A stretch of DNA of 21,893 bases from Baffinella frigidus (taxonomy: Eukaryota; Cryptophyceae; Cryptomonadales; Baffinellaceae), in the NCBI GenBank assembly GCA_026770585.1, contig MU646730.1, positions 220,399-242,291 on the forward strand. Reading direction: 5' to 3'. The position numbers and the translations under genes are program-made. The first letter of the stretch is position 1; every line of letters begins with the position of its first letter. The notes under the pieces were generated by a model, which saw only the letters and a program-made list of their open reading frames with translations, was not told the origin of the DNA and ran no database searches. This document shows, piece by piece, positions 463 through 16,920 of this stretch.

Positions 463-682
463 ATGAGCGAGGTACCCCTGTACTCACAGGGGTATCAGCC
501 GTCTGACCTGTACAGGTCGGGACGGAGCAGTGGAGGCAGCACACGCAAGGCAGTCACCTCGGACAGTTGGCTTCGGCGTCCGCGTGACCGGTCACGCGGG
601 CGTTCACGAGCCTGCCGGCGGGGCTGTTCTGGCACTCACAGGGGTATCAACCGTCTGACCTGTACAGGGGTACCTCGCTCAT
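463..682. repeat. Foldback element interrupted by an insertion
   Basis: Perfect 21-bp inverted repeats sit at 463-483 and 662-682 (arm begins ATGAGCGAGGTACCCCTGTA). Removing the insert at 517-633 plus one direct-repeat copy collapses this to a hairpin of about 68 bp with a 26-27-base loop, so the palindrome-core element appears to have landed in an older small foldback. A solitary arm of the same sequence lies at about 4441-4459. Confidence 0.7.
482..668 (+). mobile_element. Palindrome-core insertion, copy 1, with 35-bp direct repeats
   Basis: Direct repeats 482-516 and 634-668 (35 bp, one mismatch) bracket an insert at 517-633. Positions 546-629 are identical over 84 bp to 6907-6990 and include the perfect palindrome CGCGTGACCGGTCACGCG and the GC-rich 3' hairpin GCCTGCCGGCGGGGC, ending GGGGCTGTTC. 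The left 29 bases of the insert (517-545) are unrelated to the other copies. No coding capacity is apparent. I infer a short inserted element with a long target duplication. Confidence 0.75.
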
Positions 683-715
683 CCTCTCCTCCTCCCTTTG
701 TCTCACTCGGGTTGA

Positions 716-774
716 CTGTCGGACTATCCTCAAGTTGACAGGCTGGGTTCGCGGTACAAATCCGTCAACTTTGG
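716..774 (-). mobile_element. GTTGAC/GTCAAC hairpin element, copy 1
   Basis: On the minus strand this reads CCAAAGTTGACGGATTTGTA, then CCGCGAACCCAG, then GTCAACTT and GGATAGTCCG. The inverted ends AAGTTGAC/GTCAACTT enclose about 24 bases. Related copies lie at 1461, 1603, 3479, 5357, 7328 and 19330 in both orientations. No clear direct repeats flank this copy. Confidence 0.65.
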
Positions 775-808
775 AGTGAACAAGAGCCTTGGCGTTGAAC
801 CCACATTC

Positions 809-960
809 ATAGGATAACGGACTAAAAATGGGGTAGTTGGGCCTACGGTATTGACTACGGTAGGCCGTAGGGGCCTAAGGGGGCTCCTACGAAAAACCGT
901 ACGGCCTACCGTAGGTAATGCGGTAGGCGTAACTACCCCATTTTCAGTCTGTTACCCTAT
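809..960. mobile_element. MITE-like element with 30-bp TIRs
   Basis: Terminal inverted repeats at 809-838 and 931-960 share 27 of 30 bases (outer end ATAGG.TAAC, inner end AAATGGGGTAGTT). The 152-bp element carries inner inverted motifs built from CCTACGGTA/TACCGTAGG that resemble the interior of the CACACAGCGG family (1993, 12400, 20081). There is no coding capacity and no clear target duplication. Confidence 0.75.
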
Positions 961-1245
961 CAACATAGACTGAGGCAGAGCTACCCACGAAAGAGTGTAG
1001 GGCAGAGTGACCGACAGGAGAAATAGTAGAATTCCACAATTTCTCAAGTTCACAAGTGGACATTCTTCCCACAGAAAAATCGAAATTTCGGAAAGTTGTT
1101 ACACATTCCGTGTGAACTGGCTTGTTTTCCCAGGTCAGCCCTACACTCTTGCGTGGAGATGGTGAGTAAACCTCGAGCGCGAGAAGAACGACGACCGAGA
1201 GTTCTGGGTATCGCAAGGCGCATGACCTTTACAAATCGGGAAAGG
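961..1245. other. Unassigned
   Basis: No gene seen. The short motif TGAGGCAGAGC (971-981) recurs near 7443. A copy of the 45-bp GTATCGCA motif is at about 1174-1213. Overlapping open frames on both strands lack protein-like composition or recognisable motifs. Confidence 0.4.
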
Positions 1246-1370
1246 CGAGGGGCCACCAAACCGGGTGCGTCACGGGTGTGTCCAACACGCTCCGCGGTAG
1301 CATCCCTACAACTCCCTGGTACAAACTGAAACTCCCTGGTACAAACTAAAATGTGTTTTAAGTATTTTAA
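1246..1370 (+). repeat. CTGGTACAAACTAAAA satellite unit
   Basis: The unit contains CCACCAAACCGGGTG, GTGTCCAACACGCTCCGCGG, then two tandem copies of ACTCCCTGGTACAAACT(G/A)AAA. Further units of this family are at 2340-2760, 2819-2939 (inverted), about 12180-12250, 12540-13060 and 20540-20640. Confidence 0.75.
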
Positions 1371-1422
1371 GTAGTAAGCAGGACCTCGTGCGCGAGAAGA
1401 AGGATGGCTGAGAGTTCTGGGT

Positions 1423-1686
1423 ATCGCATGTACATCCTCTCCTCCTCCTGGGCACCACCCAAAGTTGACGGATTTGTACCACACACCCAGCATGTCAACT
1501 TAAGAATAGTCCGCCATCGCATGTACATCCTCTCCTCCTCCTGAACCCTCCACCAGATTCAGGTTCAGTAGGTGAGACCAGGCTAAAGGCTCAGTTCGGC
1601 TCGAAAGTTGACGGATTTGTACCACAAACCTAGCATGTCAACTTAAGAATAGTCCGCCATCGCATGTACATCCTCTCCTCCTCTTG
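1423..1686 (+). mobile_element. Two GTTGAC hairpin insertions between three 28-bp direct repeats
   Basis: The 28-bp sequence beginning ATCGCATGTACATCC occurs at 1423-1450, 1516-1543 and 1659-1686 (the last with one mismatch). Between them lie inserts 1451-1515 and 1544-1658. Both inserts end with the same hairpin element (AAAGTTGACGGATTTGTACC to AATAGTCCGCC), but their 5' parts are unrelated and of different length (about 10 and 60 bases). The constant 3' end abuts the direct repeat exactly both times, as in the palindrome-core family. Confidence 0.75.
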
Positions 1687-1837
1687 AAACCTGCGAGCGT
1701 TTCAGCTTGAATGTTAAAACCTATTAGGTTTTAAAGACCGTATGAGTTTTTACAACGCAACGTTTCGAGCCGCGTGGTACAAATCGAAGTCCCGAAATCT
1801 CGAAGTCGGGAAATTGAAACGCGGCCAGCATGTACCA
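1687..1837. other. Unassigned, short internal repeats
   Basis: No gene seen. The stretch holds a short repeated motif (CGAAGTCCCGAAATCT followed by CGAAGTCGGGAAATTG) and an inverted GTTTCGAGCCGCG / CGCGGCC pair. GTCTCGAAGTCTCGAAGT at 14143 is similar in style. Confidence 0.35.
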
Positions 1838-1984
1838 GAATCTCATTTCGGAACAAGACAGATTATGTCCCGCTATCTTAGGCTTCCGACGCCGAAGTTA
1901 AGGGATATGCTATTTTAGGCATACAATGATGCTATCTTACGCCTTTTTATGTGACAAGATTCTGGTATGTTCCGAGGTGAAATC
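1838..1984 (+). mobile_element. MITE family B, copy 1 (CCAGAATCTGTCC ends)
   Basis: Inverted ends: left CTCATTTCGGAACAAGACAG, right the reverse complement of GATTTCACCTCGGAACATAC. The interior carries CGCTATCTTAGGC and TATGCTATTTTAGGCATACA. Other copies are at 13523-13674 (opposite orientation), 14887-15030 and 15247-15350 (left end missing). No open frame is shared between copies. Confidence 0.75.
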
Positions 1985-1992
1985 GCGCTACC

Positions 1993-2151
1993 CACACAGC
2001 GGACTTCCAAGGGATTTTGAATAACCCCTAAGCGATAAGAACTACGACCCTACCGTAGGCAACCCGTAGGGACGTATGGGGGTTCCTACAGACAAGGTAA
2101 CGGAAAGGTGGCCCGATTTGGGCCGAAAATCCCTTCGTAGCCCGCTGTGTG
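1993..2151 (+). mobile_element. MITE family C, copy 1 (CACACAGCGG ends)
   Basis: Terminal inverted repeats CACACAGCGG...AAGGGATTTT and the matching AAAATCCCTT...CCGCTGTGTG define a 159-bp element. The interior has CTACGACCCTACCGTAGGCA and GTTCCTAC, also present in copies at 12400-12550 (inverted) and 20081-20250. One isolated end lies at 19250-19280. It is non-coding. Confidence 0.8.
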
Positions 2152-2190
2152 AAAACTGAAACGAGTTTCTGAAACACCCTGGTGCAAACT

Positions 2191-2330
2191 TCATCTCCAC
2201 AAAAGGATTAATCAATTGCTTTTGGCGCCACGAAATTTACTACACAAATGCTTTACTACTACTTTTATGAGCAAATCGTGTAGTAATTTTCGTTGCCCAA
2301 AAGCAATTAATTAATACTTGTATGGAGATT
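2191..2330. mobile_element. Foldback MITE inserted in satellite, 5-bp TSD
   Basis: Long imperfect inverted arms (outer CATCTCC/GGAGATT, middle CAATTGCTTTTGG, inner CGAAATTTACTACACAA) fold the whole 140-bp element. It interrupts a satellite unit: the left flank ends AAACT (2186-2190) and the right flank restarts AAACT (2331-2335). Excising the element and one AAACT restores the satellite consensus GGTGCAAACTAAAAC, so insertion with a 5-bp duplication is directly visible. The inner arm motif is shared with elements at 14278 and 15123. Confidence 0.85.
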
Positions 2331-2339
2331 AAACTAAAA

Positions 2340-2778
2340 CAGAGGTGGCTCATAACCTGGTACCCTGGGCCCTTAACCATAACCCCCAAACCTGGTACCC
2401 ACGGAAAAGAAAGTCACCAAACCGGGTGTGTCCAGCACGCTCCGCGGTACCATTCCTAAAACTCCCTGGTACAAAAAAAAACTCCCTGGTACAAACTAAA
2501 ACGTGCCCCGCGCTCTTTTCACCACACGGATTTGGAGCCGCCAGCCTACGTTCTGAAGGAAAAGCTCCAATCCCCTACTAGGGGATAAACCAAAACAGGA
2601 GTGACTCATAACCTGGTGTCCGCGGAAGAGAAAGCCACCAAACCGGGTGTGTCCAGCACGCTCCCTGGTAGCATCCCTAAAACTCCCTGGTACAGACTAA
2701 AACTCCCTGGTACAAACTAAAACTCGTGGTTCAAAATAAGGAAGTAACCTGGTGCCCGCGGAAGAGAAAGCCCCCCCC
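2340..2778 (+). repeat. CTGGTACAAACTAAAA satellite array
   Basis: About two and a half units. Each has CATAACCTGGT, GCGGAAGAGAAAG, CACCAAACCGGGTGTGTCC, AGCACGCTCC and paired ACTCCCTGGTACAAACTAAA motifs. Units differ by indels. A short palindrome CCCCTACTAGGGG is at 2572-2584. An open frame at 2345-2581 is simply satellite. Confidence 0.75.
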
Positions 2779-2980
2779 CAGCTCCTTGTGCGTCGGAAAC
2801 ACGATTATCGCCCCTGCAGTTGACCCACGTGTTAGTTTGTACCAGGGAGATTTAGTTTGTACCGGGGATTTTTAAGAATGCTACCGCGGAGCGTGCTGGA
2901 CACACCCGGGACACGCCCGGTTTGGTGGCGGACAGGCCCCAGGCTCCGTGTGCGTCGGAAGCACGATTATCGATCCTGCA
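2779..2980 (-). repeat. Inverted satellite unit between 40-bp direct repeats
   Basis: Direct repeats 2779-2818 and 2940-2980 (motif GTGCGTCGGAA.CACGATTAT, several mismatches) bracket 2819-2939, a satellite unit in reverse orientation: TTAGTTTGTACCAGGGAGA, then CCGCGGAGCGTGCTGGACAC, then GGTTTGGTGGC. Neighbouring satellite units at 2340-2760 are in direct orientation. This is another case of an insert bracketed by a long direct repeat, but older. Confidence 0.6.
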
Positions 2981-3004
2981 AAACCGTGTTTTCATTTTCC
3001 CCTG

Positions 3005-3033
3005 CAATATTTCGGCAAGTTGCCGAAATATTG
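3005..3033. repeat. 29-bp hairpin
   Basis: CAATATTTCGGCA and TGCCGAAATATTG form 13-bp perfect arms around a 3-base loop. It abuts the left end of the family A MITE that follows; the final TATTG overlaps that element's TA and TTG terminus. Confidence 0.8.
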
Positions 3034-3265
3034 TAGAAATGGGCTCCGCGCGGATTCAAGGTCAGACCAGGAAATGAGGTCAGGAGATGAAAAAACGTCG
3101 AAAATGAACTTTTATGCAATCTTAGGCATGGGCAAGATGCCCAAAATAGAATCAACCAACCGTAACACAGCACAAAATCGATTTTTCGTCAAAAACGTTT
3201 TTTTGACGTTCCTGACCTCCTTATCTCACGTTCTATAAATCCGCGCGGAGCCCATTTCTACAATA
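3029..3265. mobile_element. MITE family A, copy 1 (TTGTAGAAATGGGC ends, TA target)
   Basis: Terminal inverted repeats of about 25 bp begin TTGTAGAAATGGGCTCCGCG and are bounded by TA on both sides, fitting a TA target duplication as in Tc1/mariner-type (Stowaway-like) MITEs. The interior includes ACTTTTATGCAATCTTAGGC and a GTTCCTGACCTCCTTA stretch shared with 4489-4713. Open frames across it on both strands have no transposase features. Confidence 0.85.
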
Positions 3266-3476
3266 GCGCAAGTTGGCAAACGTTGACGTTTTCTCTAAAG
3301 TGGTTCCCTGGAGTTTCGGGTTGAAAAGCATCTAGCTAATTCTCAGTCTGATTGAGTTTCGGAAGCTCTAAGCCCTGGATGGCGTTTTATTTCCTATGTA
3401 CTTTTAGATACCCCCCTTTTAATACTTCAAGATACCCCCCTTTTAGATTTGGTACCCCTGTTTTAGATTTGAGTCT
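3266..3476. other. Unassigned, with short GATACCCCCC repeats
   Basis: No gene seen. At about 3406-3465 the motif GATACCCCCCTTTTA occurs twice, followed by a degenerate third copy GGTACCCCTGTTTTAGA (period about 25). Frames over it are low complexity. Confidence 0.4.
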
Positions 3477-3530
3477 CCAAAGTTGACGGATTTGTACCAC
3501 GAACCCAGGATGACAACTTGAGAAAGACGT
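3477..3530 (+). mobile_element. GTTGAC/GTCAAC hairpin element, copy 4
   Basis: CCAAAGTTGACGGATTTGTA, CCACGAACCCAG, then GACAACTTGAGAA. It is close to the copies at 1461 and 1604 but decayed at the 3' end. A longer relative with ends AAGTTGACGG and GACGTCAACTTT lies at 3595-3662. Confidence 0.55.
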
Positions 3531-3594
3531 CCAGGGCTGATAGCTTCTGCAACGAGATTGGGTGCGAGGTTGGCGGGTTGGCGGCCTATTGTTA

Positions 3595-4100
3595 AGTTGA
3601 CGGTGCGGGGTTGCGGTACGCACTACTGTGGGATTCGATGCAAACCCACGACGTCAACTTTAAAACAGTCGGTCAACTTTGGAGGTACCGTGGATCTCTC
3701 CGGGACTGTCGGACGAGATTTCGACAGAGCAAAGCGGCCTCTCGATCGGATCTCATGACCCTACGGTAGCAAACCCCTAGGGACCTAGGGAGTTCCTACG
3801 GGGGGGGGATAGATGGCTGTCCACTCTGAGAGTAGACTCCTAGGGGAAATTGACCCGGATCCAACCCGATTTGGTTCGCTTTGGGTTGCTGGTGGTTGGA
3901 GATGAATGTCTCCGGGTTTGTGGTAGAACCCCACAACGTCAACTTCACAATAGTCGGTCAACTACGTCAACTTTACATTAGCCCGCCAACTTGACAATAG
4001 TCCGTCAACTTTACAACAGTCTGTCAACTTTGGAGGTACCGTGGATGTCTCCGGGAGATTCGAGCGAGATTTCGACCGAGTGGAGCGACTTATCGACAAA
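3595..4100 (+). repeat. GTCAACTTT-rich duplicated block
   Basis: A segment of about 75 bp (CAACTTTGGAGGTACCGTGG, then GAGATTTCGACNGAG) occurs at about 3656-3727 and again at about 4006-4081, period about 350. Between them are a family C-like fragment (3758-3805, GACCCTACGGTAGC) and, at 3938-4032, six GTCAACTT/GCCAACTT motifs spaced about 15-30 bp, several followed by ACAATAGTC or ACAACAGTC. The spacing suggests repeated short insertions or tandem expansion of the hairpin-element end. Confidence 0.55.
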
Positions 4101-4103
4101 CTG

Positions 4104-4299
4104 GTTTTGGGGTTTGGGGTTTGAGGTTTGGGGGTTTGGGGTTCGGGGTTTGGGGTTTGGTGTTTGGGGTCTGGGGTTGGTGTTTGTGGTTTGGTGTTTG
4201 TGGTTTGGTGTTTGTGGTTTGGTGTTTGTGGTTTGGTGTTTGGTGTTTGGTGTTTGGTGTTTGGTGTTTGGTGTTTGGTGTTTGGTGTTTGGTGTTTGG
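4104..4299 (+). repeat. Telomere-like tract with homogenised TGTTTGG array
   Basis: It starts as TTTGGGG units, passes through about four copies of a 14-bp dimer (TGTTTGTGGTTTGG) and ends as about ten near-perfect 7-bp TGTTTGG units (about 4229-4299). The long frames on both strands are translations of the 7-mer only. Confidence 0.85.
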
Positions 4300-4488
4300 A
4301 CTAGTGACAGTCAAACATTTGTGTAGTAATTTTCGTTCGCAGATTCTGAAATAAAACACCTATCCCCGGAATAATGTGTGTAATCAGACGAGACACACTC
4401 ACTAGAAAGACACATCAGGACGCGACACTTTCAACAGATATGAGCGAGGTACCCCTGTAGAGAGCCCGGGCCGGGCCCTACACCATAT
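4300..4488. other. Unassigned, with MITE arm fragments
   Basis: No gene seen. TTTGTGTAGTAATTTTCGTT at 4318-4337 matches the inner arm of the foldback family (2191, 14278, 15123). The GAGCGAGGTACCCCTGTA arm at about 4442-4459 matches 463-483. A small GC palindrome CCCGGGCCGGG lies at 4466-4476. Confidence 0.45.
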
Positions 4489-4714
4489 ATTGTAGAAATG
4501 GGCTCCGCGCGAAATCAAGGTCAGACGAGGAGGTCAGGAAATTCGAAAAAATCGTCGAAAATGGACTTTTATGCTATCTTAGGCAAAGGCAAGATTCCTA
4601 AAATAGACCCAAACACCCGGAACATGCCACAAAACGGAAACAATCGATTGTTTGGTGTTCCTGATCTCCTTACCTGACGTTCTAAAATTCCGCGCGGAGC
4701 CCATTTCTACAATA
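4488..4714. mobile_element. MITE family A, copy 2
   Basis: The same terminal repeats as 3029-3265 (TTGTAGAAATGGGCTCCGCG and inverse), again bounded by TA. Shared interior: ACTTTTATGCTATCTTAGGC and GTTCCTGATCTCCTTA. The element is about 225 bp, roughly 10 bp shorter than copy 1 because of internal indels. It is non-coding. Confidence 0.85.
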
Positions 4715-4725
4715 TCAGGACACGA

Positions 4726-4891
4726 TAGAGCGCTTGCGGGAAAACTTGGCCCATTTCAAAGAGAAACCTTTTCAGAATGTGTACCAGAATCGTTTAGATG
4801 GATCGTTTACATGTCACGTCATGGTACACAATTCTCAATTTCTGAAAAAGATTCTTCTTGCAATCGGCCAAGTTTTCCCGCAAGCGCTCTA
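4726..4891. mobile_element. Family E inverted-repeat element, perfect 26-bp TIRs
   Basis: Arms 4726-4751 and 4866-4891 are perfect inverse copies (TAGAGCGCTTGCGGGAAAAC then TTGGCC). The terminal TAGAGC...GCTCTA is shared with elements at 14018 and 17231, suggesting a TA-targeted family with changing inner arms. The interior has weaker nested inverted motifs (GAATGTGTACC/GGTACACAATTC). Open frames here are not protein-like. Confidence 0.85.
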
Positions 4892-4900
4892 CCCCCACCA

Positions 4901-5113
4901 CCACTCGAGGCTGGAAGTGGGACCATTTTGAATGTGGGGTTGTTACATTTAGTACCAGTCACGGGCAGGCTTGGTCACGTATCTCGGGTTACATAACCCG
5001 AGATACGTGACCAAACGACCCTGTTTGTGTGAAAATTACTACACAGCGGTCCACTTGTAAAGGACTTGTAAAGTTAAAACTTTTAAAATTGTCACACTTC
5101 TAGCCTCGAGTGG
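4901..5113 (+). mobile_element. Family D MITE, copy 1, with central palindrome
   Basis: Terminal repeats CCACTCGAGGCTGGAAGTG and inverse CACTTCTAGCCTCGAGTGG. The 10-bp sequence ACCCCCACCA flanks it perfectly on both sides (4891-4900 and 5114-5123), consistent with a target duplication. The centre (4971-5014) is a 44-base palindrome with perfect 21-bp arms and a 2-base spacer. The interior also carries GAAAATTACTACACA. A second copy, interior inverted relative to its TIRs, is at 7670-7880. Confidence 0.85.
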
Positions 5114-5305
5114 ACCCCCACCAGGACGCATCTCATGAGAAAGAGTTACGAGCCCTTCTTTCTCAGGGGGAAAAGAGGGGCTCGTAACCTGCCAATTGAA
5201 GGGCTAAACCCTAAACCCCAACCCCAAAATTCGAGCCCCCCAAATCTACATTCGAACCCCCGAACCCCCGAACCCTGAACCCTAACCCCTCACCCCGAAT
5301 CCAGA
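5114..5305. repeat. C-rich telomere-like tract between short repeats
   Basis: CTCGTAACCTGCCAATTGAA at about 5181-5200 is followed by CCCTAAACCCC-type repeats (5204-5300, minus-strand telomere-like). CCTGCCAACTGAAG then restarts at 5306. The telomere-like tract thus appears inserted into a CCTGCCARTTGAAGGG sequence, with about 16 bp repeated on each side. Confidence 0.6.
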
Positions 5306-5530
5306 CCTGCCAACTGAAGTGTAGGTACCCTTCACCAACGCCGAAGAGGCACTTGGCGACTATTCGTAAGTTGACACGCTGGGGTCCGCGGTACAAACCC
5401 GTCAACTTTGGCGCGGGAAAGCGCCCGGGGGAGGCAAAGTGGCGAGCCCGAATAGACTGGGAAGGATAAGGGCTCGTAACCTGCCAGTTGAAGGGCAGAT
5501 ACCCTTCACCAACGCCGAAGAGGCACTTGG
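5306..5530 (-). mobile_element. GTTGAC hairpin insertion between 51-bp direct repeats
   Basis: Direct repeats 5306-5356 and 5480-5530 (51 bp, 5 mismatches) bracket insert 5357-5479. On the minus strand the insert runs from unrelated filler through CCCCCGGGCGCTTTCCCGCG, AAAGTTGACGGGTTTGTACC and GTCAACTTACGAATAGTCG, and that 3' end directly abuts the direct repeat, as at 1423-1686. The hairpin GGGCGC...GCGCC upstream of the GTTGAC stem is shared with copies at 7300 and 19395. Confidence 0.7.
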
Positions 5531-5846
5531 TGAACGTGACCGCCCTGCACAGTGCCGTGAATGGGAAGGAGTCAATGGCTCCAAAACCGGACCCGTTCTA
5601 AGGGTGTCCTTTTAGTACTGTCACGCCCGGAATTAGTAAGCAGCCGGTACAGAAAATTACTACCGACACGTCCAATAAATACACTCCGATTTGCACAGAT
5701 GGCCCCAGCGTGTGTCAGCGGAGCTGTCTTTCAGTTGCGGGGAAGCAGAGCTCTTGGGAAAAACACCTTGGACACTTCAAACACCAACAGTTCAAACACC
5801 ACATTCACCAACGCCGAAGAGGCACTTGGTGAACGTGACCGCCCTG
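5505..5846 (+). repeat. 256-bp insert between perfect 43-bp direct repeats
   Basis: TTCACCAACGCCGAAGAGGC is the start of a 43-bp sequence that is identical at 5505-5547 and 5804-5846. The insert (5548-5803) is not recognised; it has AAAATTACTAC (5652) and repeated CTTCAAACACCAACAG/GTTCAAACACCACA near its right end. In both copies the repeat is open as FTNAEEALGERDRP on the + strand, a coding-like remnant. No gene is claimed. Confidence 0.6.
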
Positions 5847-5861
5847 GGTTTTTGGATGAAG

Positions 5862-6125
5862 GATTAGGGTGTAGGGTGTGGGGTTTATGGTTTGGGGTTT
5901 GAGGTTTGGGGTTTGGGGTTTGGGGTTTGGGGTTTGGGGTTTGGGGTTTGGGGGTTGGGGTTCAGGTTTTAGGGTTAGGGTTCAGGGGTCAGGGTTTAGG
6001 GTTTGTGGTCTGGGGTTTAGGGTTCAGTGTTTAGGGTTTGGGGTTTATGGGTAAGGGGTTAGGGTTTATGGTTTATGGGTGAGGGGTTAGGGTCCAGGGT
6101 ATATGGTTTCTGGTGTTTGGTTTAG
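5862..6125 (+). repeat. Telomere-like tract
   Basis: GTGTAGGG, TTTGGGG (about eight clean units near 5895-5950), then mixed TTTAGGG, TTCAGGG and TTTATGGG variants. It ends at a non-telomeric module GGACAGGGTGCCGTACCCTT. Confidence 0.85.
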
Positions 6126-6830: not shown

Positions 6831-6851
6831 CTAACTCTTCAACGATTTCGC

Positions 6852-7031
6852 CCGCGTCCCCCACCCCCAAGTAGTTCGGGTTTCGGGTTTCAGTTTCTGT
6901 ACAACACAAGGCAGTCACCTCGGACAGTTGGCTTCGGCGTCCGCGTGACCGGTCACGCGGGCGTTCACGAGCCTGCCGGCGGGGCTGTTCCGCGTCCCCC
7001 ACCCCCAAGTGGTTCGGGTTTCGGGTTTCAG
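6852..7031 (+). mobile_element. Palindrome-core insertion, copy 2, with 42-bp direct repeats
   Basis: Direct repeats 6852-6893 and 6990-7031 (42 bp, one mismatch; contain GTCCCCCACCCCCAAGT) bracket insert 6894-6989. Positions 6907-6990 are identical to 546-629 over 84 bp, but the flanking direct repeat and the first 13 bases of the insert differ from copy 1. The target exists without the insert, in diverged form, at about 7169-7200 (GATTTCGCCCCCGTCCCC). This supports true insertion rather than duplication of a composite. Confidence 0.8.
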
Positions 7032-7880: not shown

Positions 7881-7950
7881 TAGTCCACCGTGTGGTGGTC
7901 CCATCAGAATTCGTCTAAAACACCCTGGTACCTCACAGCGAACCAAGCGA

Positions 7951-9235: not shown

Positions 9236-9640
9236 TCTAACTTCTGAACCCTAAGTCTACTAAGGCCCCCAACCCTTCATCGCGCCCGGACACGAAGCGG
9301 GCGACCGTCTTCCGACCAAACCCGGTACAGGGGTTGGTCTCGTGAACGCCCGCGTGACCGGTCACGCGGACGCCGAAGCCAGACGGTCGGTCGTGACTGC
9401 CTTGCGTGTTCCGTTGGCCGCCACCCTCCGGACACGAAGCGGGCGACCGTCTTCCGACCAAACCCGGTACAGGGGTTGGTCTCGGCGCTCTTCCTCTGCA
9501 CCCTCGCCAAGGGAAATCCCTCCTTCGCGTGGCTGCACTGCTCCTCCCAGACCTTCCAGGTTGCCCTAGAGGGTTTGAGGGATAGTGTTTACGGTGTGGG
9601 GATTGGGGGTTGGGGTTTGCTTTCCTACGGTGCAGGGGTC
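9236..9640 (-). repeat. Compound duplicated module (coding-like on minus strand)
   Basis: The order of blocks here (CTAAGTCTACTAAGGC, TTCATCGCGCCCGGACACGA, AGGGAAATCCCTCCTTCGCG, CTTCCAGGTTGCCCTAGAGG, GTTTACGGTGTGGGGATTGG, CTTTCCTACGGTGCAGGGGT) is partly repeated directly from 9774 and in reverse at 10783-11175. On the minus strand 9470-9570 reads KVWEEQCSHAKEGFPLARVQ, and the same peptide in frame recurs at 10790 (+). A gene fragment dispersed by duplication is the simplest reading; I do not recognise the family. Confidence 0.5.
9286..9484 (-). mobile_element. Palindrome-core insertion, copy 3, with perfect 57-bp direct repeats
   Basis: Direct repeats 9286-9342 and 9428-9484 are identical over 57 bp (start CCGGACACGAAGCGGGCGAC). 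The insert (9343-9427, 85 bp) carries the core palindrome on the minus strand but lacks the last ~25 bases of the element's 3' GC hairpin. At that truncated junction the element and the target share CTCG, as in microhomology-joined ends. Its other end has 23 bases of unique filler. Subfamily variant: GACCGACCGTCTGG replaces CTCGGACAGTTGG. Confidence 0.8.
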
Positions 9641-9827
9641 AGGGGACACGACGCGCCCCGCCGGTAGGCAGGCGGAGGGGGTGGGGGTAGGGAGAGAGAG
9701 GGGAGGGAGAGAGGGAGAGAGAGAGGAGAGGAGAGGGAGGAGGGGAGAGGAGGGAGAGAGTACAGGGTTTGGGGTTTACGGTGTGGGGATTGGGGATTGG
9801 GGTGTGCTCTCCTACGGTGCAGGGGTC
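9587..9827 (-). mobile_element. Purine-tract insertion between 54-bp direct repeats
   Basis: Direct repeats 9587-9640 and 9774-9827 (54 bp, 3 mismatches) bracket 9641-9773. On the minus strand the insert is a CT-rich tract followed by CTCCGCCTGCCTACCGGCGG and GGCGCGTCGTG at the end touching the direct repeat. A related polypyrimidine plus GCCTGCCGGCGGGGC segment is at 13705-13795 (+). The GC end resembles the 3' hairpin of the palindrome-core family. The target without insert is recognisable, inverted, at about 10985-11045. Confidence 0.7.
9684..9761 (+). repeat. GA-rich purine tract
   Basis: Irregular GGGAGA/GAGAG repeats without a single pyrimidine over much of the run. It is part of the insert described at 9587-9827. 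Confidence 0.8.
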
Positions 9828-10017
9828 TAACTTCTACATGCTAAGTCTACTACGGACCCTAACCCTTCATCGCGCCCGGACTCGAAGCGGGCTTCCGTCT
9901 TCCAACTTTTCGCGTCTAATTTTTTGACTTTTAACGTCTAATTTGTTTTAACGTCTAACGTCTAATTTTTGACTTTTAACGTTTTAACGACTTTAAGTGT
10001 CCGGGCGTGGTACGGAC
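9828..10017. repeat. Duplicate module start and TTTTAACGTCTAAT tandem repeats
   Basis: 9828-9902 repeats the CTAAGTCTACTACGG and CATCGCGCCCGGACTCGAAG blocks seen at 9250-9305. 9903-9995 is A/T-rich with about four irregular copies of TTTGACTTTTAACGTCTAAT. No gene. Confidence 0.5.
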
Positions 10018-10780: not shown

Positions 10781-10782
10781 TA

Positions 10783-10860
10783 ACCTGAAACGTCTGGGAG
10801 GAGCAGTGCAGCCACGCGAAGGAGGGATTTGCCTTGGCGAGGGTGCAGAGGAAGAGCGCC
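10783..10860 (+). pseudogene. Coding-like fragment, SHAKEG module, copy B
   Basis: The frame GAGGAGCAGTGCAGCCACGC reads EEQCSHAKEGFALARVQRKS, matching the minus-strand fragment at 9470-9560 and the frame-damaged copy at 11070-11140, where a TGA replaces TGC. Protein family not recognised. It is short, unbounded and surrounded by repeats, so I call it a fragment. Confidence 0.3.
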
Positions 10861-10976
10861 GAGACCAAACCCTGTACCCTGATCTTCTACCGAGACCAAA
10901 CCTTGTACCCTGATCTTCTACCGAGACCAAACCCTGTACCCTGATCAACCGAGACCAAACCTTCTACCCTGATTTT
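10859..10976 (+). repeat. 31-bp tandem repeat, about 4 copies
   Basis: Unit CGAGACCAAACCCTGTACCC followed by TGATCTTCTAC, repeated three times with near identity. A fourth copy is shorter (ATCAACCGAGACC) and runs into an eight-base T run. Confidence 0.8.
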
Positions 10977-10979
10977 TTT

Positions 10980-11180: not shown

Positions 11181-11209
11181 GGCGGGGTTGGGAGTTAGGG
11201 GTTAGGGTT

Positions 11210-11423
11210 TAGGGTGTGGCCATGTTGGGTTCGATCCGGAATAAACGATTTTCTTCCTCTGGAACAGCCCCGCCGGCAGGCTCGTGAACGCCCGCGTGAC
11301 CGGTCACGCGGACGCCGAAGCCAGACGGTCGGTCGTGACTGCCTTGTCATGTTCCTTGTCGAGAAACGTCGTAGGGTGTGGCCATGTTGGGTTCGATCCG
11401 GAATAAACGATTTTCTTCCTCTG
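11210..11423 (-). mobile_element. Palindrome-core insertion, copy 4, with perfect 52-bp direct repeats
   Basis: Direct repeats 11210-11261 and 11372-11423 are identical over 52 bp (start TAGGGTGTGGCCATGTTGGG). The insert (11262-11371, 110 bp) carries the core on the minus strand with the complete 3' end GGGGCTGTTC adjoining one repeat, and 25 bases of unique filler next to the other. Core sequence matches copy 3 (GACCGACCGTCTGG subfamily). Confidence 0.85.
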
Positions 11424-11566
11424 TAGGGTTTAGGGGTTTGGGGTTGGGTTCGGGTGTAGGGTGTAGGGTGTAGGGTGTAGGGTGTAGGGTGTAGGGTTTG
11501 GATAGGGTGTAGGGTGTAGGGTGTAGGTTGTAGGGCGCAGGGCGTAGGGTTGGGGGCTAGGGTTTT
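11424..11566 (+). repeat. Telomere-like tract, GTGTAGG variant
   Basis: About a dozen GGGTGTA units, fairly homogeneous at 11453-11530, then GGGCGTA/GGGCGCA variants. The minus strand frame is PTPYTLH repeats, i.e. simple translation of the 7-mer. Confidence 0.85.
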
Positions 11567-11650
11567 AGGTGGGGAGGAACAGCGCCGAAATGAGCACCCC
11601 AACGTGCGTTCTTGATAGCTTGCACGACTGTGTTGGGGGTTGGGTGTCAG
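11567..11650 (+). pseudogene. Coding-like fragment, NSAEM module
   Basis: Frame NSAEMSTPTCVLDSLHDCVG matches 11120-11180 and 11905-11960. Placed between a telomere-like tract and a microsatellite; family unknown. Confidence 0.3.
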
Positions 11651-11651
11651 G

Positions 11652-11707
11652 CATACATATACATATACATATACATACATATATACATACATATATATAC
11701 ATATCTA

Positions 11708-11765
<58 letters not shown>

Positions 11766-11798
11766 ATCTATATCTATATCTATCTATCTATCTATCTT

Positions 11799-11863
<65 letters not shown>

Positions 11864-11872
11864 ATATATATT
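11652..11872 (+). repeat. TATC microsatellite with ATAC/ATAT leader
   Basis: A CATATA/CATACATA leader (11652-11710) is followed by about 38 units of TATC (11711-11862), with two interruptions (CTATATCTATATC and CTTTC). The long YLSI frames are only this repeat. Confidence 0.95.
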
Positions 11873-12022
11873 TCAGGGGGAAGGATCCAAGGGTAGGATA
11901 TTGGGTCAGAGCCAAAATAAGCGCCCCGGCGTGCGTTCTTGATGGCGTGCACGACTGTGTTGGGGTTTGGGGGTTAGGGGTTCAGGGCTTAGGGTGTACC
12001 GCTATCGAGGCACCCGGGGTTT
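11873..12022 (+). other. Coding-like fragment and telomere-like patch
   Basis: AKISAPACVLDGVHDC frame at 11912-11960 (third related copy), then a degenerate telomere-like patch 11960-11998. No gene. Confidence 0.4.
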
Positions 12023-12122
12023 CGTTTAAAAGTCGAGAACAGAAATCCGGTCCTGGCTTTTCATTTTACAAGTCCAGTTCCCTTAGGATTCAGGTAATTG
12101 TTTTTAAACCCCCTTAAAATTG
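12023..12122 (+). repeat. 100-bp dispersed duplicate, copy 2
   Basis: Near copy of 8867-8967 (GTTTAAAAGTCGAGAACAG, CCGGTCCTGGCTTTTCATTT, TTCCCTTAGGATTCAGGT). Confidence 0.75.
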
Positions 12123-12252
12123 AATGACGTCCTCGCTCGGCAGCGGAGTGTAGGGCACGTGCGTGGAGAAACGGCCTCATAACCTGACAGCCATGCGACC
12201 CCCGCCAGACCAAACCGGGCGCATTTCCGGTGTGTCCAGCACACCCCGCTAA
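12123..12252 (+). repeat. Satellite fragment
   Basis: Contains CTCATAACCTGACAG, AGACCAAACCGGGCG and GTGTGTCCAGCACACCCCGCT of the CTGGTACAAACTAAAA satellite. It is cut off by the element at 12253 before the CTGGTAC part. CTCGCTCGGCAGCGG at 12132-12146 is a decayed end of the neighbouring element. Confidence 0.6.
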
Positions 12253-12405
12253 CCCGCTGTCGAGCGAGCTTGGCACGAAATCAAAAGCCAAGGTCGAAAA
12301 TCGCCCTCGGCTTTCCCGTAGGAACCCCCTATGCCCCTACGGGTTTGATCCGTAGGGCCTATGGATTACGTTTAGATGGACTGTTCCCTCCTCGCTCGAC
12401 AGCGG
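12253..12405. mobile_element. CCGCTGTCGAGCGAG inverted-repeat element
   Basis: 15-bp perfect terminal repeats CCGCTGTCGAGCGAG (12254-12268) and CTCGCTCGACAGCGG (12391-12405). The interior CCCGTAGGAACCCCCTATGC resembles family C. Its right end overlaps the left end of the next element (shared ACAGCGG). Confidence 0.75.
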
Positions 12406-12551
12406 CACAAGGGATTTTCGGGGGCTGAGAGCCCAATTTCCCGTTACCTTATCCGTAGGAACCCCCCTATGTCCCTACGGGTTGCCTACTGTAGGGTCCT
12501 AGGTCTTGTCGCTTAGGGGTTATTCAAAATCCCCTCGAAGTCCGCTGTGTG
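12399..12551 (-). mobile_element. MITE family C, copy 2 (inverted)
   Basis: Left end ACAGCGGCACAAGGGATTTT, right end AAAATCCCCTCGAAGTCCGC then TGTGTG. Interior TTATCCGTAGGAACCCCC and GTCGCTTAGGGGTTATTC are the reverse complement of the 1993-2151 interior. It abuts the previous element, giving a tandem of two related MITEs. Confidence 0.75.
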
Positions 12552-13100
12552 GTCACCCCGGTACAAACTGAACCTTTGGTAAAACACCCTGGTACAAACT
12601 AAAACTCCCTCGTACAAACTAAAACGTATTATACGTGTTCGAATTCCCGGGTACGTAACTGGCGGTTCTTCCTGGAAACAGCGTGGCACAGGCTCTCCTC
12701 GCGACCAAACCGGGTGTGTCCAGCACGCCCCGCGGTACCATCCCTAAAACCTAATAAAAAACCCTGGTACAAATTAAAAAATCCTGGTACAAACTTAAAC
12801 GTTTTATACGTGTTTTAGGTCCCGATTAGGTAACCTGGCGGCCTTCTTTTTGGAGATTCGCGGCCAGGAGGCGTCTGTCGGAAACAGCACGCGATCTCCG
12901 CCACCAAACCGGGCGTATTTCGGGTGTGTCCAGCACGCCCCGCTCGAACACCCCGGTACAAACTAAAACACTCTAGTACCGTTCCTAAAACATCTTAAAA
13001 CACCCTGGTACAAGCTAAAACACCCTGGTACAAACTAAAACTCCCAATTAGGTGACCTGGCGGCCTTCTTTGGAGATGCGCGGCCAGGAAGCGTCTGTCG
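12552..13100 (+). repeat. CTGGTACAAACTAAAA satellite array
   Basis: About three units of roughly 205-215 bp: (A)CCTGGCGGCCTTCTTT, GCGGCCAGGAGGCGTCTGTC, ACCAAACCGGGNGTATTTCG, GTGTCCAGCACGCCCCGC, then two to four CCCTGGTACAAACTAAAAC motifs. Same family as 1246 and 2340. Confidence 0.75.
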
Positions 13101-13440
13101 GGAAGAGTGTGGCACACGCGATCGCGTGCCGAATCATCGCGGGCAACCTGGGAGAACGCGGGCTTCGCAGATCAGTCCATTTACTTTCGTGGTACTGATT
13201 AATAATTGCGCGGTACAACGACATATTATCCGGCGACATTTTGCCCGGAGTGTCGGGAGAGTTTCAGTTCCGGGCGGAATTTTCTCCGTGTGTTGGATTG
13301 AGCAGTGCGGGGTGAAGGGGGCAGGACGCGTCTGTTGGGAAGAGCCTTTTTCTAAAGTCAACATGTGATCGCGTGTCGAATCATCACGGGCAACATGCCC
13401 CAAACTGGAGGAGGGAGGGTTGAGGGTGCAGGATGTTAGA
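13085..13440 (+). repeat. GATCGCGTGYCGAATCATC duplicated block
   Basis: GCGTCTGTCGGGAAGAG and GATCGCGTGCCGAATCATCG at 13090-13152 recur at 13330-13395 (period about 240). AATCATCGCGGG appears once more at 13670. Open frames on both strands here have no recognisable motifs. Confidence 0.5.
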
Positions 13441-13522
13441 GGTGTGCATGGTTTGGTGTTTGGGGCTGGGGTTTGAACCCCAACCCCTGTCTCTCAGGTT
13501 TCAGGCTGTAGGGATAGCGTGT
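13441..13522 (+). repeat. Short telomere-like patch
   Basis: GGTTTGGTGTTTGGGGCTGG, then GGTTTGAACCCC, switching to CCCCAACCCC; low quality. Confidence 0.5.
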
Positions 13523-13674
13523 GGAATCTCATCTCGGACCATACCAGAATCTGTCCACATACAAAGGTGTAAGATAGCATCGTTGTATGCCTAAAATAGC
13601 ATGTGCACCTTTATCTTCGGCGTCAGAAGCCTAAGATAGCGGGACAGAATTCGTCTTGTTCCGAAATTAAATCA
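13523..13674 (-). mobile_element. MITE family B, copy 2 (inverted)
   Basis: Left GAATCTCATCTCGGACCATA, right TCTTGTTCCGAAATTAAATC, interior GTAAGATAGCATCGTTGTAT and CCTAAAATAGCAT. Reverse-complement match to 1838-1984 and 14887-15030. Confidence 0.75.
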
Positions 13675-14017
13675 TCGCGGGAAGCCTGTGAGAGCGGAAG
13701 GGGGGGGGTTGCCTCTCCCTCCCCTCTCTCTCCTCTCTCTCTCGCCCTCTCTCTCGCCCTCCCCTCCGCCAGCCTGCCGGCGGGGCCCGTCGTGGGTTCG
13801 AGGCCACAGGACGCCTTTTCAGGCCGCAAAAAGGGGCTGTTCACGAGCGACGATGGCCTGGGTATCAAATCGACCTTTTTCTAAGGTCAACTCACCCACG
13901 AATCCGTCTTTCTGTCCCGAAATCCACCCAAAAATACTTTTAGGAGCGAAGAAATAATAGTACAAAGACGGATCGATTTGATACACAGGTTGTCGTCGCG
14001 TGGTGCGTTGTTCCTGA
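13675..14017. other. Polypyrimidine tract with GC hairpin, then unassigned
   Basis: 13712-13770 is CTCTCC/CTCTCT-rich, followed by CTCCGCCAGCCTGCCGGCGG and GGCCCGTCGTGGG, matching the insert at 9641-9773 in reverse. The frame over this tract is Ser/Leu/Pro low complexity. 13820-14017 shows no recognisable feature apart from CCTTTTTCTAAGGTCAAC, also at about 13347. Confidence 0.5.
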
Positions 14018-14205
14018 TAGAGCCATTCCGGTAGGACTTGTCGCGTTTTCGACTTCGAGATTTCAAGATTTCAGACTTCAAAAAGGTTTTAAAGGGCGTA
14101 AAACGTTTTAAAACACACCGTTTCAAATCTCATGGTTCCAATGAAGTCTCGAAGTCTCGAAGTCTCGAAATCGAAAACGCGACAAGTCCTACCGGAATAG
14201 CTCTA
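14018..14205. mobile_element. Family E inverted-repeat element, 35-bp TIRs
   Basis: Arms 14018-14052 and 14171-14205: TAGAGCCATTCCGGTAGGAC, then TTGTCGCGTTTTCGA, with one mismatch. The interior has CGAAGTCTCGAAGTCTCGAA triplicates. The terminal TAGAGC...GGTAGGACTTG is shared with 17231-17437. Confidence 0.85.
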
Positions 14206-14277
14206 CAGTGTCGGGGTTCCACTCCTACCCACAGGGTTAACGCTCTCCGATTTAACACGCTCCGATTTCATCCGGAC
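14206..14277. other. Spacer with repeated CTCCGATTT
   Basis: CTCTCCGATTTAACACGCTC followed by CGATTTCATCC; nothing else recognised. Confidence 0.3.
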
Positions 14278-14410
14278 GAGTATTCAAGTTGAATACGACC
14301 CCTGCAACGAAAATTACTACACAATTGCTTTGGGACGTGACCAGTTGTGTAGTAATTTCCGTTGCAAGTCGGATCGGAGATCCCCGAAATCGTATCGAAC
14401 CTGAATACTC
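14278..14410. mobile_element. Foldback element, GAGTATTC / ACTACACAA arms
   Basis: Outer arms GAGTATTCAAGTT and inverse AACCTGAATACTC; inner arms GCAACGAAAATTACTACACA and inverse TTGTGTAGTAATTTCCGTTG. The right arm carries about 20 extra bases between outer and inner parts. The inner arm is shared with 2191-2330 and 15123-15243. Confidence 0.75.
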
Positions 14411-14507
14411 GGCGGGATTTGATTGCGCGGCTAGAAAGGCCGGTTTCGTACCGCGACACGCACGGTTTCGTGCGTCCCGCAGTACAAATCGGCGATTTCA
14501 AATAGCG
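14411..14507. other. Unassigned spacer
   Basis: Contains a small palindromic CGCACGGTTTCGTGCG (14459-14474). No gene. Confidence 0.35.
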
Positions 14508-14840
14508 GGATTGGTCCGCCAGCGGGGGGGAGGGGGAGGGGTTGACCCGACGGTTAGGAAGGAGTCCTTCCTATGCGGGAGAGCTACATGTCATTTTACG
14601 CCCAACGTCCTTCTATTACTCTTCCTTGAAATCGGCAAAAGTTGCCGGAAATGCCCACAAATAATTGACTTTGACGGAAAAGTAACTGCAGCATATGTTT
14701 GAAATGCCCCCAAGAACCCACCTAGCCCTTCCCCGTAGTCTACGGGGACTACGGGAAGGGTATTTTAGGCATACAATGAAGGACTCCTTCCTAACCGTCG
14801 GGTCAACCCCTCCCCCTCCCCCCCGCTGGCGGACCAATCC
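14508..14840. mobile_element. Inverted-repeat element with perfect 63-bp TIRs
   Basis: 14508-14570 and 14778-14840 are exact inverse copies over 63 bp, including runs of 7, 5 and 4 G's (arm starts GGATTGGTCCGCCAGCGGGG and ends AGGAGTCCTTC). The loop region (207 bp) includes a nested hairpin 14727-14760 (CCCTTCCCCGTAGT/ACTACGGGAAGGG) and TATTTTAGGCATACAAT from family B. Part of the arm (GACCCGACGGTNAGGAAGGA) recurs at 15438-15467. Perfect arms through homopolymers suggest a recent origin or gene conversion between arms. Confidence 0.9.
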
Positions 14841-14843
14841 AGT

Positions 14844-15073
14844 CTCTCGGCAGAAGCGCCTTCAGGAGGTGGTCGAGCGCCAATCTAATTTCGGACCAAG
14901 ACAGAATCTGTCCCGCTATCTTAGGCTCCCCACGCGGAAGGTAAGGGTGCATATGCTATTTTAGGCACCAAATGATGCTATTATACGCCTTTTCATCAGG
15001 ACAGATTCTGGTATGGTCCGAGATGAAATCCTCTCGGCAGAAGCGCCTTCAGGAGGTTGTCGAGCGCCAATCT
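14844..15073 (+). mobile_element. MITE family B, copy 3, between 43-bp direct repeats
   Basis: Direct repeats 14844-14886 and 15031-15073 (CTCTCGGCAGAAGCGCCTTC, then AGGAGGTGGTCGAGCGCCAA; one mismatch) exactly bracket the 144-bp MITE 14887-15030. A diverged relative of the target is at about 15469-15510 (GGTAGGGGCGCTTTGAGGAG) without a MITE. Here the long-duplication pattern accompanies a TIR element, not a GC hairpin. Confidence 0.75.
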
Positions 15074-15243
15074 CATCCGGACGAGTATTTGTGATAAATA
15101 CGCACCGGCAACGAACTATCCGGAGTATTTATGATAAATACGCACCGGCAACGAAAATTACTACACACATATTTTAACAACTACTAGTATGATCGATTTG
15201 TGTAGTAAATTTCGTTGCCTTTGCGTGTTTATCATAAATACTC
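15074..15243. mobile_element. Foldback element with duplicated left arm
   Basis: 15123-15243 has arms GAGTATTTATGATAAATACG, then GGCAACGAAAATTACTACAC, and the matching inverse on the right. Positions 15077-15116 are an extra tandem copy of the left arm (GGACGAGTATTTGTGATAAA, CGCACCGGCAACGAA). Confidence 0.8.
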
Positions 15244-15350
15244 GGCTCCCCACGCGGAAGGTAAGGGTGTATATGCAATTTTAGGCACCCAACGATGCTA
15301 TCTTACGCCTTTTCATCAGGACAGATTCTGGTATGGTCCGAGATGAAATC
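15244..15350 (+). mobile_element. MITE family B, copy 4, left end replaced
   Basis: From CTCCCCACGCGGAAGGTAAG to GGTCCGAGATGAAATC it parallels 14925-15030, but the left end is absent: the foldback at 15077-15243 occupies its place. With 14844-15073 it forms a tandem duplicate whose second copy has been overwritten. Confidence 0.75.
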
Positions 15351-15512
15351 CCCACAACTTCGGGCGCCACCCGCCACATTTGGAGGCTGGCAATAAAAAC
15401 AGTTGTATGCCCAAACGGTGCCTTACGGGTCGGGGGTGACCCGACGGTGAGGAAGGAGTCCTTCCAGTCTTTCGGTAGGGGCGCTTTGAGGAGTTGGTCG
15501 AGGGCCATGAGC
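15351..15512 (-). pseudogene. Coding-like fragment, DQLLKAPLPKD
   Basis: On the minus strand 15440-15590 reads QIRTVMQRWSTHDQIISSPL and MALDQLLKAPLPKDWKDSF. The related direct repeats at 14844 and 15031 read LDHLLKALLPR-like peptide in the same strand. Family not recognised; the frame is cut by telomere-free repeat sequence and the arm fragment of 14508-14840. Confidence 0.3.
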
Positions 15513-16202
15513 GGAGAGGAGATGATTTGGTCGTGCGTGCTCCACCGCTGCATCACCGTCCGAATCTGCGTGTAATAGGGATCCCGGATCAATGATTAGG
15601 GCGCGCTAAGTAGATCCCTAATTACGAATTAGGGGTCCACAATTTTATTATTGATTAAGGGTCCATAATGAGTAATTGGGGATCTCTATGGATTAATTAG
15701 GGATCCTGAGAGAGAGACAGTAGGGGAGAGGAGATAATTTGGTCGTGCGTGCTCCACCGCTGCATCAGCGTCCGAATCTGCGCGGCCAGAAGCTAATTGA
15801 TTACATAGGAACCCCGAAGCATTAACTAGGGAGCGGTACGTAGATCCCTACTGATGAATTAGGGATCCGCAATGATTAGTTAGGGATCCTGAGAGAGGGT
15901 GAGATGTGATCCACCGTTGCATAAGCGTCCGAATCTGCTCCACCACATACGGAAATTACTTAGGGAATTACGTACTTAGGAAATTGCACATTGCTTAGGG
16001 AATTACTTAGGGACCGGTAAGTAGACCCCTAATCACTGATTAGGGGTCCTGTGTGAGAGAGAAAGAGGAGAGGAGATGATCTGTTCGTGCGTGCATCAGC
16101 GTTCCGAATCTGCGTTTAATAGGGATCCCGAACCAATGATTAGGGAGCGCTAAGTAGATCCCTAGTTATTGATTACGGATCCATAATTTCTGGTTAGTAA
16201 TT
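15513..16202 (+). repeat. Tandem 170-215-bp repeat with TAGGGATCC motifs
   Basis: Four units start at about 15513, 15724, 15898 (degenerate) and 16068: GAGAGGAGATGATTTGGTCG, TGCGTGCTCCACCGCTGCAT, CGTCCGAATCTGCG, then A/T-rich text with many copies of TAGGGATCC/GGATCCCTA and TGATTAGGG, and closing GAGAGAGA. The motif is partly palindromic, so many weak hairpins are possible. Confidence 0.75.
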
Positions 16203-16508
16203 GGTTTAGGGTTTGGGGTTTAAGGTTTAGGGTTTATGGTTCAGGGTGTAGGGTTTGGGATTTAGGGTTTGGGGTTTGGGGTTTGGGGTTTAGGGTTTAG
16301 GGTTTAGAGTTTAGGGTTTAGGGTTGTGGGTTTAGAGTTAAGACTTTAGGGTTTAGGGTTTAGGGTTTGGGGTGTGGGGTGTGGGGTTTAGGGTTTAGAG
16401 TTTAGAGTTTAGGGTTGGGGGTTTGGGGTGTGGGGTTTGGGGTTTAGGGTTTAGAGTTTAGGGTTTAGGGTTGGGGGTTTAGGGTTTAGGGTTTAGGGTG
16501 TGGGGTGT
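16203..16508 (+). repeat. TTTAGGG telomere-like tract
   Basis: About 40 units of TTTAGGG with TTTGGGG, TTTAGAG and GTGTGGGG variants; among the cleanest long tracts of the window, but clearly interstitial. Confidence 0.9.
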
Positions 16509-16530
16509 GCCGTAGCGGCGGAGTCCGGGA

Positions 16531-16920
16531 GCTTGGTCGCCGCGAGCTTGAGAAACTTTGTCGCCTGCTCAAAGGAGGATCACATCGAGGATATGTAACG
16601 TGTCATTTCCCCCAGACAGTCGGCCGAAAACGAACGGCCCCTCGGAAGGAAATGACTCAAGTTACAATATCGATCTGGTCTACTTCGGAGGGCTGGTCGC
16701 CGCGAGTTTGAGGAACTTTGTCGCCTGATTTAGGGTTTGGGGTTTAGGGTTTAGGGTTTCGGGCTTGGGGCTTGGGGCTTGGGGTTCACGGTAACGTGCC
16801 ATTTCCCCAGTCAGTCGGCCGAAAACGAATGGCCCCTCGAAGGAAATGGGCCAAGTTACAATCTCGATTTGGTCTACTTCGGAGGGCTGGTGCCGCGAGC
16901 TTGAGGTATTGTGTCGCCTG
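16531..16920 (+). mobile_element. Two hairpin insertions between three ~36-bp repeats
   Basis: The repeat GCTTGGTCGCCGCGAGCTTG...TTTGTCGCCTG occurs at 16531-16567, 16692-16727 and 16886-16920 with small differences. Inserts 16568-16691 and 16728-16885 share the same right portion: a hairpin GTAACGTGTCATTTCC/GGAAATGACTCAAGTTAC (16595-16665; second copy from 16791), then TCTGGTCTACTTCGGAGG abutting the repeat. Their left portions differ: 27 bases of unique text in the first, a 63-base telomere-like tract in the second. Confidence 0.75.

Follow-up and report, generated by a model that had tools for sequence, protein, structure and literature searches.

The window analysed here is a stretch of 21,893 nucleotides from the cryptophyte Baffinella frigidus (assembly GCA_026770585.1, contig MU646730.1, positions 220,399 to 242,291), which we read as eukaryotic nuclear DNA from its content. 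It carries degenerate TTTAGGG-like arrays, many palindromic or inverted-repeat elements and a series of short inserts bracketed by long direct repeats (Table 1). Four of these inserts (A1 to A4) are copies of a dispersed element of about 97 bases, called family A, which is the main subject of this report.

Table 1. Inserts of the window and the direct repeats that bracket them (window coordinates)
Feature	Position	Strand	Basis or bracket
Left 35-bp direct repeat (pair 97% identical), target duplication of A1	482..516	.	self-comparison
Family A copy A1, core and variable 3' tail	517..633	-	alignment
Right 35-bp direct repeat of A1	634..668	.	self-comparison
D-type insert, not in the earlier note	1216..1382	+	between 1170-1215 and 1383-1428
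B-type insert	1451..1515	-	between 28-bp direct repeats 1423-1450 and 1516-1543
Second B-type insert	1544..1658	-	between 1516-1543 and 1659-1686
D-type insert	2819..2939	-	between 2779-2818 and 2940-2980
B-type insert	5357..5479	+	between 5306-5356 and 5480-5530 (51 bp, mismatches mainly in left part)
256-bp insert, found once in the searched 221.7 kb	5548..5803	.	between 43-bp, 100% identical repeats 5505-5547 and 5804-5846
Left 42-bp direct repeat of A2	6852..6893	.	self-comparison
Family A copy A2	6894..6989	-	alignment
Right 42-bp direct repeat of A2	6990..7031	.	self-comparison
Left 57-bp direct repeat of A3, 100% identical	9286..9342	.	self-comparison
Family A copy A3 with a 5' truncation near position 23	9343..9427	+	alignment
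Right 57-bp direct repeat of A3	9428..9484	.	self-comparison
GA-rich insert	9641..9773		between 9587-9640 and 9774-9827; its simple repeat matches 13712-13794 at 81%
Left 52-bp direct repeat of A4, 100% identical	11210..11261	.	self-comparison
Family A copy A4, core and variable 3' tail	11262..11371	+	alignment
Right 52-bp direct repeat of A4	11372..11423	.	self-comparison
C-type inverted-repeat element	14887..15030	+	between 43-bp direct repeats 14844-14886 and 15031-15073
M-type insert	16568..16691	-	between 16531-16567 and 16692-16727
Second M-type insert	16728..16885	-	between 16692-16727 and 16886-16920

An earlier note on this DNA had listed 13 direct-repeat pairs around inserts, and blastn self-comparison of the window confirmed all 13. 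Three further pairs were found: the one around the D-type insert at 1216-1382 (46 bp, 89% identical), 2609-2639/2745-2775 (31 bp, 94%) and 12820-12848/13042-13070 (29 bp). The repeats of the window are not due to chance, since none of 1500 segments shuffled in two-base blocks reached a direct repeat as strong. A strong direct repeat within 150 bp was also found around 777 of 4000 random sites (19.4%) taken from the window and the 10-kb loci described below, away from family A, so that a single bracket is weak evidence of insertion. In the 221.7 kb of DNA used for local counts (window and loci), 281 direct-repeat pairs around inserts of up to 400 bp were counted, nested ones included. This high background of near direct repeats is a finding in its own right. 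Taken as a whole, the earlier observation is thus partly confirmed. The proposed grouping of the inserts into a few families applies to 11 of the 13 brackets (family A, four; B, three; M, two; C and D, one each), the other two being those of the inserts at 5548-5803 and 9641-9773.

To follow family A beyond the window, genome-wide tests were run on the 382-Mb assembly (1364 contigs). Exact cores of the element are present 375 times in a long form (44-mer) and 78 times in a short form (34-mer). Because the first search scored the best 40 of 1002 candidates, the loci studied here (L numbers) are the best-matching, mostly young copies. They comprise 20 stretches close to 10 kb long and a further 20 of 750-900 bp, among which L048 repeats part of L019, together with 20 stretches of 500-950 bp added later around the short form, which lacks the palindrome. 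The exact core patterns of A and D gave 0 matches in public viral contig and genome contig collections, blastn of one family A locus against phages gave no match, and no earlier description of such an element was found in searches of open-licence PMC papers.

The two ends of family A behave differently. Among 83 aligned matches, 65 start at positions 1-5, 10 are 5'-truncated and begin at positions 15-23, and 7 start later. The 5' end reads (C)GTGGAACAG; the base at -1 is C in 33 of the 42 copies starting at position 1, and beyond it no base is clearly preferred. At the other side 77 of the 83 matches extend to core position 95 or 96, the remaining 6 stopping at 87-93. Past the terminal TGTTCC, which is complementary to the GGAACA of the 5' end over 6 bp only, the copies carry tails that form lineages (TAGC, TAGCACCCCTAG, TAGCACCCCTAGACAGACTG, TCAACCGTATA, ACTC, CCCCTACCCG, TTTCGAG and others). 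A poly(A), A-rich or common 3' tail was not found among the aligned copies; the lineage tails are flank of the parent copy. Internal Pol III promoter boxes were sought by eye, and none stood out clearly. The earlier claim that one end is fixed and the other variable therefore extends beyond the window for family A. For B and M it also applies within the window, but the constant end of B is not the end of that family elsewhere.

We compared the flanks of the copies after dropping the rows of L048 and L053, two of L022 and one of L031, which are overlapping, tandem or fold-back. At least 6 nt of 3' flank were common to another copy in 29 of 71 copies, whereas 5' flank was common to another in 2 of 60. 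Counted as pairs, 76 of 2485 had at least 6 nt of 3' flank in common (0.76 in shuffles) and 1 of 1770 had as much 5' flank in common (0.54 in shuffles). One 35-nt tail is common to two copies on different contigs, and a search of the genome did not find it at a third place. At L051 one copy has a tail that holds the first 4-5 bases of the target repeat belonging to a sister copy at a distance of about 500 bp. These data indicate that the copied molecule starts at a definite base but has no definite end, and that inserted copies together with their flank serve as its template. Of note, L053 contains three short-form copies in tandem with a 146-bp period and the same tail.

Family A copies are also associated with target duplications. 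A strong flanking direct repeat was present in 48 of 80 matches, against the 19.4% of random sites, and the repeat stopped at the fixed end of the element in 35 of 80, against 202 of the 4000 random sites (5.0%). This test left out L048, L053 and short matches, and L031 gives two of its rows. In the first locus set, 45 of 61 rows (including two of L048 and two of the L031 fold-back) had flanking repeats above all 200 shuffles of the right flank. The 41 clearest duplications measure 24-85 bp, with a median of 43, and no target motif was found at either boundary of these 41 sites (at most 0.22 bit per position). In view of their variable length, DNA transposition with a constant duplication length was rejected for family A. 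A Helitron origin was rejected after inspection by eye, which showed no typical ends.

To look for relatives of the targets with a single repeat copy, the joined empty sites of 45 rows were compared with the DNA searched, and two clear cases were obtained. The target at L038 belongs to a dispersed hairpin family, of which members in 8 loci cross the site with one repeat copy and are 69-85% identical; the target of A1, a hairpin element (463-682), has relatives in L016 and L019 that are not interrupted and share about 74% identity with it. Matches of the joined sites of L019/L048, W_11260, L009 and L022 came from the same locus or were telomere-like and were left out of the count, and the remaining joined sites had no relatives in the DNA searched. 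At A3, the continuation on the left resembles a paralogue at 9826-9906, and that on the right resembles 10782-10878 in the opposite orientation. The structures might also be tandem duplications or misassemblies independent of the inserts. This DNA is indeed rich in diverged tandem arrays, but the targets differ at dozens of loci across many contigs, the repeat ends are tied to the element end, and relatives have single-copy targets; an artefact of this kind is disfavoured to the point of being negligible.

A transposon explanation can be considered on the same evidence. Family A might be a miniature inverted-repeat transposable element (MITE) of a DNA transposon, with GGAACA/TGTTCC as very short terminal repeats, that happens to leave long duplications. 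The complementary 6-bp termini and the many inverted-repeat elements of the window fit this, whereas the inconstant duplication length and the variable 3' end carrying parent flank do not. The MITE-like inverted-repeat families E, F, G and H of the same DNA have strong flanking repeats at about background frequency (0/2, 0/7, 3/12 and 4/17 copies, respectively); a further inverted-repeat family, J, has 2/3. We therefore regard a MITE as very improbable.

The junctions were then inspected at the nucleotide level. Among 14 5' junctions without extra bases, a recount found 11 with at least 1 nt common to target and element start; in four of these 11 only the C is common, and this C could also be target. 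A further 7 5' junctions carry extra bases. At the 3' junction, microhomology of at least 6 nt was seen in three cases (L018, L019 and L024).

These features of family A fit the copying of a defined small molecule, because the element has a fixed 5' end, 5' truncations, a run-on 3' end, junction microhomology and a duplicated target. A transcript would have just such a fixed start and ragged, run-on end, and the copying of RNA into a nick would lead to 5' truncation and duplication of the target. Our preferred interpretation, to which we assign a probability of about 0.52, is that family A is a non-autonomous, SINE-like (short interspersed element) but tailless retroposon copied into staggered breaks, probably through an RNA intermediate. 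A source copy would give rise to a small, structured molecule, in all likelihood an RNA, with a fixed first base ((C)GTGGAACAG) and a fold in which GGAACA at one end pairs with TGTTCC at the other. Its 3' end would lie at a variable distance beyond TGTTCC, within the flank of the source. This molecule would be copied into a chromosome break with nicks about 24-85 nt apart, its 3' end sometimes pairing with the exposed strand via short homology and its 5' end often being joined via 1-4 nt of homology, and fill-in of the overhangs would then duplicate the target. As no motif is seen and the spacing is 24-85 bp, the breaks are probably not picked by an endonuclease of the element, and the polymerase would presumably be a reverse transcriptase supplied in trans. 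Reading frames with a reverse-transcriptase domain and no RNase H match exist in this genome (see below). The fold-back copies of L031 and L022 suggest that this polymerase can switch template. Two processes had been suggested earlier: small structured RNAs copied by target-primed reverse transcription, or the capture of filler at breaks with widely spaced nicks. The copying of a small molecule suits family A, but the varying end is the 3' end of the copied molecule, which is the reverse of classical target priming. The earlier interpretation is, overall, partly supported.

Several results weigh against the retroposon interpretation. Although mostly young copies were chosen, 32 of the 80 matches lack a strong flanking repeat, so that copies without direct repeats, which the earlier note had taken as grounds for refutation, exist genome-wide as a minority. 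The fold-back copies of L022 are among them, and L017 has a 12-bp repeat only. In addition, near direct repeats are frequent in all DNA read. No tRNA (ARAGORN) or Rfam match at gathering score was obtained in the window, which holds four family A copies. Folding of the sense strand of the core was no better than that of shuffled sequences (z -0.41), while the opposite strand folded better (z -2.35). The copies are also clustered, 12 of the 78 short-form sites having a neighbour within 10 kb compared with about 0.3 calculated for a uniform distribution, and such clustering is easier to explain by DNA copying than by a diffusing RNA. Finally, no partner element with the 3' end of family A was found in the six reverse-transcriptase stretches scanned (see below).

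The clustering leads to an explanation that involves DNA only. A DNA end at a staggered break would switch template to a near or distant family A copy, stop at a strong hairpin and rejoin, leaving filler within a tandem duplication, as in repair of the polymerase-theta or Pol alpha-primase type. Such copying would account for the probable daughter about 500 bp from its parent at L051, for the fold-back copies of L031 and the 300-bp inverted pair of L022, for the microhomology at 5' junctions and for the high background of near direct repeats; small tandem duplications are moreover known at breaks with 3' overhangs, as described in passages of PMC8355091. It predicts, however, that both flanks are carried along, which disagrees with the pair counts given above (1/1770 for the 5' flank, 76/2485 for the 3' flank), and random capture would not be expected to give a sharp 5' end in 65 of 83 matches. 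Weighing the transcript-like ends against the clustering and the unremarkable folding of the sense strand, we consider DNA template switching possible but rather unlikely, and we keep RNA copying as the preferred route. Of note, the fold-back element at L022:6275-6600, about 300 bp long with arms of family A, shows by eye at most a few bases of target duplication.

We also considered that family A is an ordinary SINE moved by the endonuclease and reverse transcriptase of a long interspersed element (LINE), by target priming in which the second-strand nick would be unusually wide. This possibility agrees with the target duplications, the 5' truncation and the number of copies, and candidate enzymes exist. 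A search of the genome for RVT_1 gave 20 matches, of which seven were fetched; L071 was inspected as frames only and the other six were scanned against Pfam. L072 encodes RVT_1 and RNase H, and L073-L077 matched RVT_1 only. In L074-L077 (contigs C372, C559, C1326 and C1001) the open frames are long and matched a reverse-transcriptase domain but nothing else in Pfam, hence no RNase H, and residues 560-900 of L074 have three relatives among the protein matches listed (41, 39 and 29% identical). No endonuclease domain was matched in L074-L077, whose stretches are incomplete, and no flanking duplication of the L077 element was found in the 8.5 kb read, because its frame runs off the start of that stretch. 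The missing endonuclease match, the lack of a target motif and the lack of a poly(A) or common 3' tail all speak against a LINE-moved SINE, as do duplications that mostly exceed the 8-30 nt LINE1 stagger given in PMC5322556. We judge this alternative improbable.

SINEs are short, non-autonomous, dispersed elements with target duplications and 5' truncation. Family A resembles them in all these respects and in its hundreds of near-identical copies, but differs by the absence of tRNA or Rfam similarity in the window, the absence of an A-rich or common 3' tail and its longer duplications. A closer likeness is found in tailless retropseudogenes, copies of small structured RNAs mobilised by LINE1 in mammals, which according to parts of PMC5322556 have a kept 5' end, no oligo(A), a variable 3' end, target duplications and 3' junction pairing with the target, as family A does. 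Their 3' end is nevertheless truncated inside the RNA, whereas that of family A runs past the element into the parent flank; the same parts describe a screen for duplications of 8-35 nt, while those of family A measure 24-85 bp and have no motif. In the portions consulted of PMC4516963, on break repair by reverse transcripts, and of PMC2246262, on interstitial telomeric repeats made by telomerase, RNA is copied into breaks with small target changes and some duplications (in a table of PMC2246262, at 6 of 130 loci in rodents and 4 of 25 in primates). The insertions described there are mixed captures, whereas family A is one defined recurring element with long duplications; telomere-like arrays are abundant in our window too. 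Fill-in of overhangs at breaks gives duplications of tens of bases in the passages of PMC8355091, but these hold no insert of a single fixed-end element, unlike those of family A. Introners are likewise short and very numerous in protist genomes, some families having duplications of 3-9 bp according to PMC9860276. The duplications of family A are long and of any length, so that splicing would not restore the reading frame cleanly, and these long, odd-length duplications led us to reject an introner. For each of four known kinds (SINEs, tailless retropseudogenes, LINE-type insertion and MITEs), at least one of the features tested is not shared by family A.

Family A provides a natural system, as its near-identical copies number in the hundreds and allow the copied ends to be read, often together with the source flank and the target duplication. 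It could be used to test the rate of RNA copying into breaks, the natural spacing of nicks and the life of a retroposon without an endonuclease. It also calls for caution, as duplications well over 20 bp can be true target duplications. A wider proposal, which we offer tentatively and hold to be doubtful, is that a small structured RNA spreads without its own endonuclease by being reverse-transcribed into natural staggered breaks. The patching of such breaks, in which the filler would be RNA-derived, telomere-like or copied, would then be a main force writing this genome and would have left a near direct repeat around about one in five sites.

Among the other inserts of the window, B, C and M do not group with family A, and the earlier idea of one process for all inserts was not supported. 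B is part of a longer dispersed element at other loci, its sequence continuing past the constant end seen in the window, and 7 of its 26 copies have a strong flanking repeat, near the background of about 20%. For C this was the case in 1 of 7 copies (the one in the window) and for M in 1 of 2. B, C and M were consequently rejected as elements of the same kind as A, and the repeats of C, E, F, G and H are absent or near background. D has strong flanking repeats in 5 of 6 copies, just one of them adjoining the element; this favours the earlier reading but rests on six copies, too few for a judgement. A paralogue of the right repeat copy (1383-1428) of the D-type insert at 1216-1382 lies at 330-382. 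The M and B triplets of the window look like either repeated insertion or tandem duplication at one site, the two being inseparable here, and the second M-type core with its repeat also equals a diverged tandem unit of about 196 bp.

A few additional features were observed. A telomere-like C-rich array at about 5205-5305 (within 5178-5330) lies between two copies of a short direct repeat, CCTGCCAAYTGAAG, which gives the impression that this filler was inserted in the same way as other inserts. An element with perfect 63-bp terminal inverted repeats lies at 14508-14840, and long-armed inverted-repeat elements are also present at 17230-17438, 14018-14205 and 4726-4891. An HSP90 search of the assembly gave a single match of 27 positions, a lone piece suggesting that genes are cut into very small exons or masked. 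In L011 (around 5083) and L013 (around 4949) the right repeat of a family A copy closely precedes gtaag or ggtgag, and these two copies possibly lie inside or beside exons.

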